This document shows, in pieces, positions 659 through 29,078 of a stretch of DNA of 64,000 nucleotides. The notes below the pieces were generated by a model. That model saw only the letters and a list, made by a program, of their open reading frames with translations. It ran no database searches and was not told the DNA's origin. Origin of the DNA: Goekera deserti (GTDB lineage: Bacteria; Actinomycetota; Actinomycetes; Mycobacteriales; Geodermatophilaceae); the NCBI RefSeq assembly GCF_010685995.1, contig NZ_JAAGWK010000012.1, positions 62,001 through 126,000 on the forward strand. Reading direction: 5' to 3'. How positions within the stretch are numbered: the first letter of the stretch is position 1; each line of letters opens with the position of its first letter. The position numbers and the translations under genes were made by a program.

Positions 659-1851
659 TCAGTCCGCCAGGACCGCGAGGCCCGGGAGGTCCCGGCCCTC
701 GAGGTACTCCAGCGACGCGCCGCCGCCGGTGCTGATGTGGCCGTAGGCCGCCTCGTCCAGGCCCAGCTGCCGCACCGCGGCCGCCGAGTCCCCGCCGCCG
801 ACGACCGACAGCCCGTCGATGCCGGACACGGCCCGGGCGACGCCCTCGGTGCCGGCCGCGAACGGAGCCAGCTCGAACACGCCCATCGGCCCGTTCCAGA
901 ACACGGTGTGCGCACCGTCCAGGTGCCGGCCGAACAGCTCGACCGAGCGCGGGCCGATGTCCAGGCCCATCTGGTCGTCGGCGATCGCGTCGGTGCCGAC
1001 CGTGGTGGTGGGTGCGTCCGCGCTGAACTCCGGGGCGCACACCACGTCGACCGGCAGCACGATCCGCTCACCGGCCTCGGCCAGCAGTCGCCGGCAGGTG
1101 TCGACCTGGTCGGCCTCCAGCAGGGACTTCCCCACCCCGTGCCCCTGGGCGGCCAGGAAGGTGAAGCACATCCCGCCGCCGACGAGCAGCGTGTCCACCT
1201 TGGGCAGCAGGGCCTCGATCACGGCGAGCTTGTCGCTCACCTTGGACCCGCCGAGCACGACCACGTAGGGCCGCTCCGGCTCGGTCGTGAGCCGGCGCAG
1301 CACCTCCAGCTCGCGGGCGACGAGCCGGCCCGCGGCGTGCGGCAGCCGCTGGGCGACGTCGAACACCGAGGCGTGCTTGCGGTGCACGGCGCCGAACGCG
1401 TCGTCGACGTAGAGGTCGGCCAGGCCGGCCAGCCGGTCGGCCAGCTCGCCCCGCTCGGCGTCGTCCTTGCTGGTCTCGGCCGCCTCGAAGCGGACGTTCT
1501 CCAGCAGCAGCACCTGCCCGTCGGCCAGGGCCGCGGCGCGGGCGGTGGCGTCCGCGCCGGCCACGTCGGCGGCCAGCGGCACCTCGGCGCCGAGCAGCTC
1601 GCCGAGCCGGGCGGCGACCGGGGCCAGCGAGAACTGGGGGTCCGGGGCGCCCTTCGGCCGGCCCAGGTGGGCGGCGACGACGACCCGCGCGCCGGCGTCG
1701 CGCAGGGCCTGGATCGTGGGCACGCTCGCCCGGATCCTGCCGTCGTCGGTGATCTCCCGGGTGGTCGTGTCCAGCGGGACGTTCAGGTCGGTGCGCAGCA
1801 GCACGCGCCGGCCGGACACCCCCTCGGCGATGAGGTCGTCGACGCTCCGCA

Positions 1852-23893: not shown

Positions 23894-23959
23894 CCGCCCT
23901 GCCGAGGGCGACCGGGTGGCCGGTCCCCGGTCCGCCGGCCGGGACCTCAGGTCGTACGG

Positions 23960-23992
23960 GGCCGGTGTCGGCGTGCGGGCGCGGCACCGGCC
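23960..23992. terminator. Possible terminator hairpin between convergent genes
   Basis: GGCCGGTG at 23960-23967 pairs with CACCGGCC at 23985-23992 around a 17-base GC-rich loop. It lies between the amidohydrolase gene and the convergent terC gene, where a bidirectional terminator is expected. Confidence 0.35.
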
Positions 23993-23997
23993 ATCGG

Positions 23998-25089
23998 TCA
24001 GCTGTGTCGGGTGTCGCCCCGGGCCTCGGCCGCGCGACGCTCGGCGTCGGTGAGGGCGTCGGGCTCGCCGGGGGCACCGGTCGGCTCGCCCTCCGGGTCG
24101 ACGGCGGGGCCGTCGGCGTCGGGCACCTGGCCGCGTGTCTTCAGCAGGCTGGCGACCGTGGCGATGACCAGCACGCCGAGGATCACCGACAACGAGAGCC
24201 AGATCGGGATCTCCGGGATGCTCTCGATCGGCTCGCGCTCGCCGGCGAAGGGCAGCTGGTTCTCGTGCAGCGCCTCCAGCACGAGCTTGACGCCGATGAA
24301 CGCCAGGATGACGGCGAGGCCGAGCGACAGGTAGACCAGCCGCTTGAGCAGGCCGCCGAGCAGGAAGTACAGCTGCCGCAGGCCCATCAGGGCGAAGACG
24401 TTGGCGGTGAACACGATGAACGGCTCGCGGGTCAGCCCGAAGATGGCCGGGATGCTGTCCAGCGCGAAGATCAGGTCGGTGGTGCCCAGGGCGAGGAAGA
24501 CGATGACCAGCGGGGTGAAGAACCGCTTGCCGTCGCGCTTGACGCGGACCTTGCTGCCCTCGTAGTCCTCGGTGATCGGCAGGATCTTGCGCATCCGCCG
24601 GATGAGCGCGTTCTCCTCGTACTCCTCGTCCTCGTGCTGGCTGCGGACCAGGTTGATCGCGGTGTAGATGAGGAACGCGCCGAAGATGTAGAAGACCCAG
24701 ACGAACCGCTCGATGACCGCGGCGCCCAGCAGGATGAAGATCCCGCGCAGCACCAGGGCGATGATGATGCCCACCATCAGGGCCTCTTGCTGCAGCGCCC
24801 GGGGCACCTTGAAGCGGGCCATGATGATCACGAAGACGAAGAGGTTGTCGACCGACAGCGAGTACTCGGTCAACCAGCCCGCGTAGAACTGTGTCGCGAA
24901 GTCACCGTTGGTGACCACCAGCACGAGGACGCCGAACAGCAGCGCCAGCGCGACGTAGAAGACCACCCAGCGGGTGGCCTCCTTGACCGAGGGCTCGTGC
25001 GGTCGCTTGACCACCAGCGCCAGGTCGAACAGCAGCAAGGCGGTGAGCCCCACGAACGTCGCGATCTCGAACCAGACGGGGAGCTCCAC
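23998..25089 (-). CDS. TerC-family integral membrane protein (downstream paralogue)
   Basis: 363 aa with about eight to nine transmembrane segments and the TerC hallmarks SLSVDNLFVFVIIM and FALDSIPAIFGLTREPFIVF. TerC/Alx members export or exchange Mn2+ and support metalation of secreted enzymes; related proteins give tellurite resistance. The acidic HEDEEYEEN loop and a charged cytosolic C-terminal tail are visible. GTG start at 25089. It lies 186 bases behind a second terC copy, with a strong terminator in between, so it seems to be a separate transcript. Confidence 0.92.
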   Translation of the reverse strand: MELPVWFEIATFVGLTALLLFDLALVVKRPHEPSVKEATRWVVFYVALALLFGVLVLVVTNGDFATQFYAGWLTEYSLSVDNLFVFVIIMARFKVPRALQQEALMVGIIIALVLRGIFILLGAAVIERFVWVFYIFGAFLIYTAINLVRSQHEDEEYEENALIRRMRKILPITEDYEGSKVRVKRDGKRFFTPLVIVFLALGTTDLIFALDSIPAIFGLTREPFIVFTANVFALMGLRQLYFLLGGLLKRLVYLSLGLAVILAFIGVKLVLEALHENQLPFAGEREPIESIPEIPIWLSLSVILGVLVIATVASLLKTRGQVPDADGPAVDPEGEPTGAPGEPDALTDAERRAAEARGDTRHS

Positions 25090-25190
25090 GGGACAGGACT
25101 CTACGGGGACGCACAGGGAGCCGCCGTCCGTGAGCTGTGCACGACGCTCGCGGCCTGCTCACGGCAGGGTCACCGGAGCCGGACACGACG

Positions 25191-25225
25191 GAGGCCGTCG
25201 ACGACTCGGGGTCGTCGACGGCCTC
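25191..25225 (-). terminator. Strong hairpin between the two terC genes
   Basis: A perfect 15-bp stem (GAGGCCGTCGACGAC against its complement) with a five-base loop TCGGG, 50 bases after the stop of the upstream terC gene. It is a convincing factor-independent terminator stem without a strong T-run. Confidence 0.75.
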
Positions 25226-25275
25226 GGCCGTGCGGGTGGCGCGGGGCCGCGGGTGCGGCACGCCGCACCGGTGGG

Positions 25276-26415
25276 TCAGCGCGGCGCGGGCAGCCCGTCG
25301 GCGTCCCGGCTGGCGGTGTCCGGCGACCCGGTGTCGGAGGCGGTGCCGGTCTCGGAGCCCGTGTCCGCGTCGGTCTGCGGGGCGGCGGGGCCGGAGGCGC
25401 CGCCGGTGCCGGTGACGGGCAGGCCAGCCGCGGCCTGCTGCTGCTTGACCTTCTTGTCCTTGGCCAGGCTGGCCAGGGTGGTGACGACCAGTGTGACCAC
25501 GATGACGCCCAGCGACAGCCAGGTCGGGATCTCCGGGACGGCGGTCACGTGCTCGCCGCCGTTGATGAACGGCAGCTCGTTCTCGTGCAGCGCGTGGATC
25601 AGCAGCTTCAGGCCGATGAAGCCCAGGATGACGGCGAGGCCGTAGGCCAGGTACACCAGCCGGTCGAGCAGACCGTCGATGAGGAAGTACAGCTGGCGCA
25701 GGCCGAGCAGCGAGAAGGCGTTGGCGGCGAAGACGAGGAAGGTCTCCTCGGTGAGACCGAAGATCGCCGGGATCGAGTCGACGGCGAAGAGGATGTCGGC
25801 GCTGCCGATGGCGATCAGCGCGACGGCGAGCGGGGTGATGAAACGCTTCCCGTCGATCTTCGTGACCATCTTGTCGCCGTGGTACTCCTCGGTCGTCGGC
25901 AACACCTTGCGGGTGAGCCGGAGGACCGAGTTCTCCTTGAACTCCTCGTCCTTGCTGTGCCCGCCGCTGCGGGCCTGCACGACCGCGGTGTAGATGAGGA
26001 TGGCGCCGAAGAGGTAGAACACCCAGCTGAAGTTCTCGATCGCGGCGGCACCGATCACGATGAAGACCGTGCGGAGCACCAGGGCGAAGGTGATCCCGTA
26101 GAGCAGCACCTTCTGCTGCAGCTCCCGCGGGATGGCGAAGCTGGTCATGATCAGCACGAAGACGAACAGGTTGTCCACCGAGAGGCTCTTCTCGGTGATG
26201 TAGCCGGCGAAGTACTCACCGCCGTAGGTGGCCCCGGAGAAGGCGAAGACCAGCAACCCGAACACGACGGCGATGCCGACGTACACCGAGGACCAGATCG
26301 CGGACTCGCGCATCGAGGGGGCGTGCGGCGTGCGCACGTGGCCGAACAGGTCGAACGCGAGCATCCCGACGATCGCGGCGATCGTCAGTGCCCACACCCA
26401 GGTGGGGACGTCCAT
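25276..26415 (-). CDS. TerC-family integral membrane protein (riboswitch-linked paralogue)
   Basis: 379 aa, same fold as its neighbour: SLSVDNLFVFVLIM, FAVDSIPAIFGLTEETFLVF and about eight hydrophobic segments. The C-terminal 60 residues are Ala/Gly/Asp/Thr-rich and probably disordered in the cytosol. The ATG at 26415 has CGGAGGAAC before it. The leader 38 bases upstream carries a yybP-ykoY-type Mn2+ riboswitch, which supports a manganese-export role over tellurite resistance. Confidence 0.93.
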   Translation of the reverse strand: MDVPTWVWALTIAAIVGMLAFDLFGHVRTPHAPSMRESAIWSSVYVGIAVVFGLLVFAFSGATYGGEYFAGYITEKSLSVDNLFVFVLIMTSFAIPRELQQKVLLYGITFALVLRTVFIVIGAAAIENFSWVFYLFGAILIYTAVVQARSGGHSKDEEFKENSVLRLTRKVLPTTEEYHGDKMVTKIDGKRFITPLAVALIAIGSADILFAVDSIPAIFGLTEETFLVFAANAFSLLGLRQLYFLIDGLLDRLVYLAYGLAVILGFIGLKLLIHALHENELPFINGGEHVTAVPEIPTWLSLGVIVVTLVVTTLASLAKDKKVKQQQAAAGLPVTGTGGASGPAAPQTDADTGSETGTASDTGSPDTASRDADGLPAPR

Positions 26416-26452
26416 GCGGGTTCCTCCGGAGATCTGGCAGGTCGTGTCAGAA

Positions 26453-26557
26453 CCGGAGGTCTCTCCCGTCGGACCGGTGGACCGGCCGACCAGCTGCCCC
26501 GGGGGTCATCGGACCCCGTGTTGACGAGACTGCTGCTGGGGATACTCCCCTCCCGGA
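26453..26557 (-). promoter_or_regulatory. yybP-ykoY (Mn2+) riboswitch candidate
   Basis: Read on the minus strand, the leader holds the conserved 5' block GGAGGGGAGTA, a central CGTCAACAC block, and the 3' block GAGAGACCTCC; GGAGG and CCTCC can pair as P1. These are the paired L1/L3 elements that bind Mn2+ in this riboswitch class. It ends 37 bases before the terC start codon, so it could act on the ribosome site or on early termination. Assignment is by eye and should be scored with the Rfam model RF00080. Confidence 0.75.
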
Positions 26558-26719
26558 CAGCACTCTCACCTGGGCACCACGAGATGGCCAGGCGGCACGC
26601 CGTCCACCGGGGAAGACGACCCGGAGCGCCGGATGATTCCCGGACCCGACGTGATCCACGCCGCACTCGCCTCGCCGGGGGGCAACCGACCCGCCTGGCA
26701 CGGGCGTGCCGCGCGCCGC

Positions 26720-28834
<2,115 letters not shown>

Positions 28835-29078
28835 GTGGACGACGGTACGACGACCCACCGACAGAACGGGCCGTGCTCGGTCTCCCCCGCCTCGCACAGC
28901 GGACGGGGCCGGTGGTTGAGAGACTGGCGGCGAGCTCGTGACCGGGACGTCATGACGAGTGCGTGTGCCCGGCGGTGCGGGCGGGCACCGCCGACCCGAC
29001 GAGCTCGTCGTCCCCGCCGGCTGGCGGGGGCTCCCGCGGCCCCGACACGAGGGCCGCCCACAGCAGGAGGACCACCCG
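28835..29078. other. Divergent uvrB/glgX intergenic region
   Basis: Holds the presumed promoters of both genes. A hairpin at 28970-28993 (CGGCGGTGC pairing with GCACCGCCG) lies in the glgX leader, and AGGAGG at 29065-29070 is the glgX ribosome site. I looked for a LexA-type SOS box and did not find one. Confidence 0.5.

Follow-up and report, generated by a model that had tools for sequence, protein, structure and literature searches.

Two tandem terC genes in the window (the whole 64,000-nucleotide stretch of DNA analysed here) appear to be controlled by different 5′ elements. We read the leader of the first gene, terC1, as a translational, Mn2+-sensing riboswitch of the yybP-ykoY class, and the second gene, terC2, as expressed from its own promoter on a leaderless mRNA without a switch; the probability of this reading is, in our estimate, about 0.8. 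That the two copies use different control is, judging from their sequences, very likely, because terC2 has no switch and seemingly starts at its own promoter. The original prediction had likewise proposed different regulation of the paralogs, which is supported by the riboswitch, GGAGG, and ATG found at terC1 as opposed to the -10-like TAGAGT and GTG found at terC2.

An ORF check returned both genes at the predicted positions; they are on the minus strand:

25276..26415, minus strand: terC1, TerC/Alx family membrane protein, ATG start (PF03741 169.9 bits, TIGR03718 383 bits)
23998..25089, minus strand: terC2, paralog of terC1, GTG start, predicted to be leaderless

Their products share 52% identity, and both score above the cut-off for Pfam PF03741 and NCBIfam TIGR03718 ('R_switched_Alx'). 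The genes lie on the same strand with a spacing of 186 nt, and the tandem pair is also present in relatives. Upstream of terC1 is a minus-strand ORF (26720-28897) that we take to be uvrB. The host genome is 4.84 Mb in size. Elsewhere in the window, a c-di-AMP riboswitch (RF00379, 37013-37162, plus strand, 55.1 bits) is the sole Rfam match above cut-off; other weak Rfam matches (DUF3800-XI, snoRNAs, and more, with E-values of 0.73 to 9.1) were set aside as chance.

Structure and class assignment of the terC1 leader

The aptamer blocks that had been predicted upstream of terC1, with matching P1 halves, are all present on the minus strand. The GGAGGGGAGTA block runs from 26553 to 26543 and the GAGAGACCTCC block from 26465 to 26455, and the P1 halves GGAGG (26549-26553) and CCTCC (26455-26459) are complementary. 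Leaders of relatives were first gathered by a simple motif search upstream of terC in loci of the host's family; with helices numbered as in the alignment A1 (76 sequences), the parts of the window leader are as follows:

26438..26564, minus strand: yybP-ykoY-type Mn2+ riboswitch aptamer with flanks, matched by the covariance models R1 (105.1 bits) and R2 (86.9 bits)
26549..26553, minus strand: 5′ strand of the P1.1 switch helix, GGAGG (helix 1 of A1, 100% of cells paired)
26543..26548, minus strand: 5′ side of the L1 internal loop, GGAGUA (unchanged in all 91 sequences of the class set, whose members were selected by model rather than by motif)
26539..26542, minus strand: 5′ strand of P1.2, UCCC (helix 2 of A1, partner GGGA at 26464-26467)
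26492..26534, minus strand: L3 hairpin arm (helices 3-5 of A1)
26525-26534 / 26492-26501, minus strand: outer helix of the L3 arm
26518-26524, minus strand: loop side of the L3 arm, UCAACAC
26512-26517 / 26502-26507, minus strand: inner helix of the L3 arm
26468..26490, minus strand: last arm, the variable hairpin GUCGGCCGG..CCGGUCCGAC (helix 6 of A1, change on both sides at 8 of 8 pairs)
26460..26463, minus strand: 3′ side of the L1 internal loop, GAGA (89 to 91 of 91 per column)
26455..26459, minus strand: 3′ strand of P1.1, CCUCC (7-mer CCUCCGG with 26453-26454; partner of the Shine-Dalgarno sequence in the minimum free energy (MFE) fold)

In the A1 fold, P1.1 is followed by the internal loop GGAGUA/GAGA and by P1.2; an L3-type hairpin, bulged on one side, and the variable hairpin complete it. 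Across A1, 95.8% of the cells at paired positions are in fact paired, compared with 84.5% in shuffled alignments, and none of 500 shuffles was equally high, the shuffles taking no account of kinship; slid controls pair in 35 to 51% of cells. All five pairing measures lie above every one of the 500 shuffles and the slid controls. Compensatory change is seen at 21 of the 30 pairs; in P1.2, where 99.3% of cells are paired, both sides have changed at two of four pairs. The columns of the two search motifs in A1 are invariant by construction. In a set of 91 class-wide sequences chosen by model instead of motif, GGGAGUA and the A of CGUCA in the L3 arm (26522) are the same in 91 of 91 sequences and GAGA is nearly so; 95.4% of cells are paired in this set as against 72.2% in shuffles, in an alignment fitted to the structure. 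By sequence and covariation, the window leader has the junction core of the class, with P1.1, L1 (GGGGAGUA / GAGACC), P1.2, and an L3 hairpin with CGUCA. The leader precedes 67 of the 68 terC1-type genes in the host's family, and the lone exception (L071) is a second terC1-type gene in a genome whose other copy has the leader.

Folding energy and the existing Rfam model gave little by themselves. The fold of the aptamer stretch alone was not clearly better than that of shuffles (z -1.26), and the MFE of the whole leader was modestly below them (z -1.86). A search with RF00080, which the original prediction had named as a check, was negative at the terC1 leader with or without the gathering score: the window had no match at that score (45 bits), the local stretch none to an E-value of 10, and the whole host genome, searched to the same E-value, none at this leader. 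RF00080 did report another place in the host genome, a sister copy (L001) aligned over the whole model at 22.7 bits. The cut-off was reached at none of 20 relatives' loci submitted to Rfam (20 of the 29 in L005-L033). Because RF00080 gives the terC1 leader no score at all, this search would wrongly have dismissed the element.

The same model also falls short on well-studied members of the class. RF00080 (Rfam 15) missed the known alx riboswitch of E. coli K-12 (L290, 1866-2016) at an E-value of 0.01, and the E. coli K-12 mntP stretch (L291) scored 41.6 bits against the cut-off of 45. Fourteen control genomes yielded three with a match (E. coli, B. subtilis, and Caulobacter), two of them above cut-off. 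As the mntP and alx stretches also fall below it, we did not take the RF00080 cut-off as the boundary of the class, and judging by these two stretches the model may be weak beyond actinomycetes too.

We also scored the leader with the two custom covariance models. R1 was built from A1 with the window sequence included, so that its score of 105.1 bits on the window leader is partly by construction. R2 was built from 91 class-wide matches, its alignment lacking the window sequence, and gave the window leader 86.9 bits (E 2.3e-19); it is not wholly independent, since its sequences were collected with R1. R2 also found the leaders of two E. coli genes, alx (56.6 bits, E 7e-13) and mntP (27.3 bits, E 8e-6). 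The former is a TerC-family gene, annotated as Mn exporter Alx. The terC1 leader belongs to the same aptamer class as that of alx. Both E. coli leaders are described as yybP-ykoY-family riboswitches under manganese regulation, and for mntP the switching is described as translational, with Mn as the activating signal (PMC9603457, PMC11647493). The comparison with relatives settles the question that RF00080 and folding had left, and we accept the terC1 leader as a riboswitch and file it as a putative Mn riboswitch aptamer, although it does not reach the formal Rfam threshold.

One may ask whether a related structured leader could sense another cation or pH, given that a response to alkaline pH is also described for the E. 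coli alx leader (PMC9603457). We regard this as highly improbable: no sequence of the class set departs from GGGAGUA or from the A of CGUCA, GAGA is almost as constant, R2 recognizes Mn-responsive E. coli leaders, and the genes downstream of class instances belong mostly to Mn export families. Manganese as the ligand of the terC1 switch, and its ON direction, would be shared with the class, from which both are carried over by analogy.

Proposed exchange between P1.1 and the terC1 Shine-Dalgarno sequence

In the published aptamer, as described in PMC6754395, P1.1 is stabilized by Mn2+, and without that stabilization the platform downstream invades the 3′ strand of the helix. The corresponding partner in the window is the following:

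26423..26429, minus strand: terC1 Shine-Dalgarno sequence CCGGAGG, complement of CCUCCGG at 26453-26459, with covariation across leaders

The 7-mer CCUCCGG is exactly complementary to this sequence, which lies 7 nt upstream of the ATG. The unconstrained fold of the window leader pairs the 3′ strand of P1.1 with the Shine-Dalgarno sequence, and forcing P1.1 to form costs 9.7 kcal/mol in the fold model. Of 75 family leaders, 68 are predicted to sequester the Shine-Dalgarno sequence likewise in their ground state; the other seven comprise one with a CCUCAGG strand and six with CCUCCGG. The CCUCAGG strand, not a full match to CCGGAGG, occurs in six of the 75.

As CCUCC is complementary to any GGAGG, the relevant test is whether both sides change together. 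Among 81 non-redundant class leaders, the duplex between the strand and its own downstream region had a mean energy of -16.3 kcal/mol, compared with -13.0 kcal/mol for permuted partners, and none of 10,000 permutations reached the energy of the true partners; an 80% identity filter was the only guard against relatedness. For the first 7 nt, an exact complement was present in 38 leaders (15.4 expected) and absent in the other 43; for the first 9 nt, one was present in 12 (2.3 expected). For individual strand variants, the complement of CCUCC was found in 31 of 42 own regions and 13 of 39 others, that of CCUUC (GAAGG) in 10 of 19 own and 8 of 62 others, and that of CUUUC (GAAAG) in 3 of 6 own and 2 of 75 others. 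The rarer CCUUG (1 of 5 own, 1 of 76 others) and CCUCA (1 of 2 own, 1 of 79 others) gave small counts, and the rarest strands (CCUCU, CCUCG, CCUGC, and CCUGG) had an exact 5-mer complement in none of seven own regions. Strand and partner have changed jointly in L088, L247, L255, L259, and L260, and in a further copy from the host genome (L075) the strand and its downstream region form 11 contiguous pairs.

These data bear on a different reading, in which the riboswitch acts mainly on transcription, by ending it within the leader either intrinsically or with Rho, and the match to the Shine-Dalgarno sequence arises incidentally from the likeness of CCUCC to the anti-Shine-Dalgarno sequence of 16S rRNA. 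Any GGAGG will indeed pair with such a strand, for an X. oryzae member the mechanism described is transcription antitermination (PMC6754395), and translational control of E. coli mntP is described as combined with Rho (PMC11647493). We nevertheless judge this reading unlikely, as the pairing reaches past the GGAGG core and tends to change on both sides together (CCUUC/GAAGG, CUUUC/GAAAG), to a degree that no permutation matched.

We favor a translational switch, in which the pairings of the P1.1 strand with its aptamer partner and with the Shine-Dalgarno sequence are predicted to be mutually exclusive. At low Mn2+, the 3′ strand CCUCCGG would pair with CCGGAGG and initiation would be blocked. 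Mn2+ would dock loops L1 and L3, whereupon P1.1 would close and take up the CCUCC strand, freeing the Shine-Dalgarno sequence so that TerC1, a probable Mn exporter or metalation factor, could be made. A search for a conserved or fixed -10 box ahead of the terC1 aptamer was negative.

Leaders of GDT1 genes, which belong to the same class, showed a further arrangement. In L271, L281, L283, and L289, a linker element pairs with the 3′ strand of P1.1 and is also able to pair with an anti-Shine-Dalgarno strand, which suggests that GDT1 leaders have a longer relay platform than terC leaders. This was clear in those four of the 13 examined, and not clear in several others (e.g., L234, L244, L284, and L286).

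The terC2 start and the gap between the genes

Two features distinguish the region from the end of terC1 to the start of terC2:

25191..25225, minus strand: intergenic 15-bp hairpin with no U run after it, at which the terC1 transcript would probably terminate
25098..25103, minus strand: -10-like TAGAGT, 8 nt upstream of the terC2 GTG start

The original prediction held that the second terC gene has no riboswitch leader, and the window bears this out: apart from the terC1 aptamer itself, nothing in 23900-26900 scored above 7.6 bits even with filters off, and a search for a degenerate aptamer in the gap gave 7.4 and 5.9 bits, on the hairpin. With TAGAGT placed 8 nt from the GTG and no GGAGG, the terC2 sequence predicts a leaderless mRNA without a switch. 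TANNNT -10 boxes and many leaderless mRNAs are described as established in Mycobacterium tuberculosis (PMC3898074).

The same features recur in the host's family. A script called a riboswitch at 8 of 46 terC2 orthologs, all eight of which have ATG and GGAGG, and none at the other 38. No GGAGG precedes the start in any of these 38, and in 29 of them TANNNT stands exactly 7 or 8 nt ahead of it, a placement seen in none of 68 terC1-type genes. Inspection by hand added L020 and L045 to the 29 and moved L073 to the riboswitch genes, giving a corrected tally of nine with a riboswitch, 31 of leaderless type (the window included), and six with neither. The predicted placement of a riboswitch at only one of two terC genes consequently stands in the window and does not extend across the family, where 9 of the 46 terC2 orthologs have one. 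When R2 was run on 29 family loci, the terC1 leader was the only strong match in the 17 leaderless ones besides L069; L045 had a weak match (15.1 bits) on the other strand.

The intergenic hairpin, noted in the original prediction for its strength, has a perfect 15-bp stem. The gap stretch 25170-25275 folds at -74.7 kcal/mol, compared with a shuffle mean of -50.2 (z -7.0). Of the 31 leaderless loci, 28 were tested, and every one has a strong intergenic hairpin, with differing sequences; the best 50-nt folds range from -33 to -51 kcal/mol, and z was below -2 in all 28 (mean -4.8, 30 shuffles each). In L069, the best gap hairpin touches an extra riboswitch. As the window hairpin has no U run, we call it a probable terminator only, at which the terC1 transcript probably ends.

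This evidence weighs on the possibility that terC1 and terC2 form one operon, with terC2 translated from the riboswitch transcript through read-through and coupling and both genes responsive to Mn2+. The shared strand, the spacing of 186 nt, and the recurrence of the pair in relatives would suit such an arrangement, as would the six of 46 terC2 genes that have neither a riboswitch nor a -10-like box at the usual spacing (L006, L048, L054, L057, L062, and L064), five of which follow gaps of 60 to 117 nt. Against it, the window and 30 other loci carry a -10-like box 7 or 8 nt ahead of a GTG, GGAGG is missing at 38 of 38 terC2 genes, and all 28 loci tested have a strong hairpin in the gap; we think a single operon improbable. 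In the reading that we prefer, terC2 would have a promoter of its own, giving a leaderless mRNA that begins with the GTG and has no metal switch, and would provide a basal supply.

We placed the leader types on a tree of 46 terC2 proteins, with five terC1 proteins as outgroup and 20 of 48 inner branches open. Their distribution is clustered yet patchy: the leaderless label requires nine changes, three of them forced by well-supported branches, and the riboswitch label six, two of them forced. For 8 of 10 terC2 riboswitches examined, the closest sequence is another terC2 riboswitch, and the nine for which the alignment includes the terC1 switch of the same genome are only 61 to 71% like that switch. 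Against a clean split, the terC1-type leader L023 is about equally close to two terC2 riboswitches (86 and 88%). L069 has a full riboswitch (1610-1751, minus strand) whose GGAGG and ATG start a short ORF; this ORF ends ahead of an intact terC2 promoter of the leaderless type, and the locus is possibly an intermediate of regulatory replacement.

The patchy tree, the mutual similarity of terC2 riboswitches, and L069 suggest that terC2 genes of this family (probably Geodermatophilaceae) alternate whole 5′ modules, either Mn riboswitch, GGAGG, and ATG or leaderless promoter and GTG, which are exchanged before the same gene. We advance this tentatively, at somewhat less than even odds; if true, module exchange would make a transporter under metal control constitutive, or the reverse.

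Distribution of the class and relation to known systems

At an E-value of 0.01, R1 matched 123 of 197 genomes in one class sample that included the host (116 of 173 when restricted to high-quality genomes). RF00080 matched seven of the same 197 at that E-value and none above its cut-off, so that many Mn riboswitches of Actinomycetes lie below the current Rfam model. Across the phylum, R2 matched 38 of 149 genomes at an E-value of 0.001, some of which had already been used in its building. The exact pattern was found, among the matches listed, in Blastococcus, Arthrobacter, Janibacter, Actinomadura, Cellulomonas, Kocuria, and Tsukamurella, in MAGs labelled Acidimicrobiia and Thermoleophilia, and in single MAGs labelled Acidobacteria and Melainabacteria.

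The genes behind these elements are largely those of Mn export and homeostasis, as with TerC/Alx in the window. In 90 class instances (the 91 rows of the R2 alignment minus one duplicate), the downstream gene was TerC by best hit in 72 and GDT1, another Mn exporter family, in 13. Of the other five, all ORFs picked by script, one encodes a Na/Ca exchanger, one a GreA/GreB C-terminal domain protein, and one a PGPGW protein; the last two match no Pfam family. The R1 matches L238, L255, L265, and L287 precede ORFs for the GreA/GreB C-terminal domain, the PGPGW membrane protein, and the two Pfam-less products; these script-picked ORFs are candidate members of the Mn regulon, and may not be the first gene, especially at L238.

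The host genome itself holds three convincing copies, at terC1, at a third terC gene (L075), and at a GDT1 gene (L076). A fourth R1 match (C19, E 0.05) was rejected, the ORFs of that stretch reading as rplC and rplD, and four weaker matches had E-values of 0.97 to 6.1. In L006, L025, L054, L057, and L064, a further riboswitch with P1.1 GAAGG/CCUUC lies on the opposite strand beside the tandem pair, and in L006 and L025 it stands before a third TerC gene.

The class of the element is known, as is its gene context (annotated for a terC leader of C. glutamicum), and divided control of TerC genes has its counterpart in B. subtilis. Three points appear new to us, not having been met in our searches of the open-licence literature: the class-wide failure of RF00080 to pick up the element, the covariation seen in the exchange of P1.1 with the Shine-Dalgarno sequence, and the choice between riboswitch and leaderless start at terC2. 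Within that literature, searches for a manganese riboswitch together with TerC, and for a riboswitch in Geodermatophilaceae, found none, and titles and abstracts gave no Mycobacterium TerC with such an Mn leader.

Compared with E. coli alx and mntP, the window leader shares an aptamer core that the actinomycete model R2 recognizes in all three. It differs in that its Shine-Dalgarno sequence directly complements the 3′ strand of P1.1, a feature known here from actinomycete leaders alone, in which the switch helix of the class seems to swap its strand directly with the Shine-Dalgarno sequence. Closer in phylogeny is the terC gene cg2157 of C. glutamicum, an actinobacterial gene for which a yybP-ykoY leader annotated by Rfam and an observed transcript are described (PMC3890552); the likeness is one of annotation, and its 49.1 bits stem from the Rfam model current at the time (PMC3890552).

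A parallel in regulatory logic is found in B. subtilis, where meeY is described as controlled by an Mn riboswitch and meeF as expressed constitutively, with additional induction through stress sigma factors (PMC10550928). There, meeF sits in a yceCDE-meeF operon (PMC10550928), whereas the terC copies of the window are adjacent and the second is seemingly leaderless. As with meeY and meeF, one of the tandem TerC copies would be metal-switched and the other probably constitutive, and the separate roles of two TerC forms become testable at one small locus.
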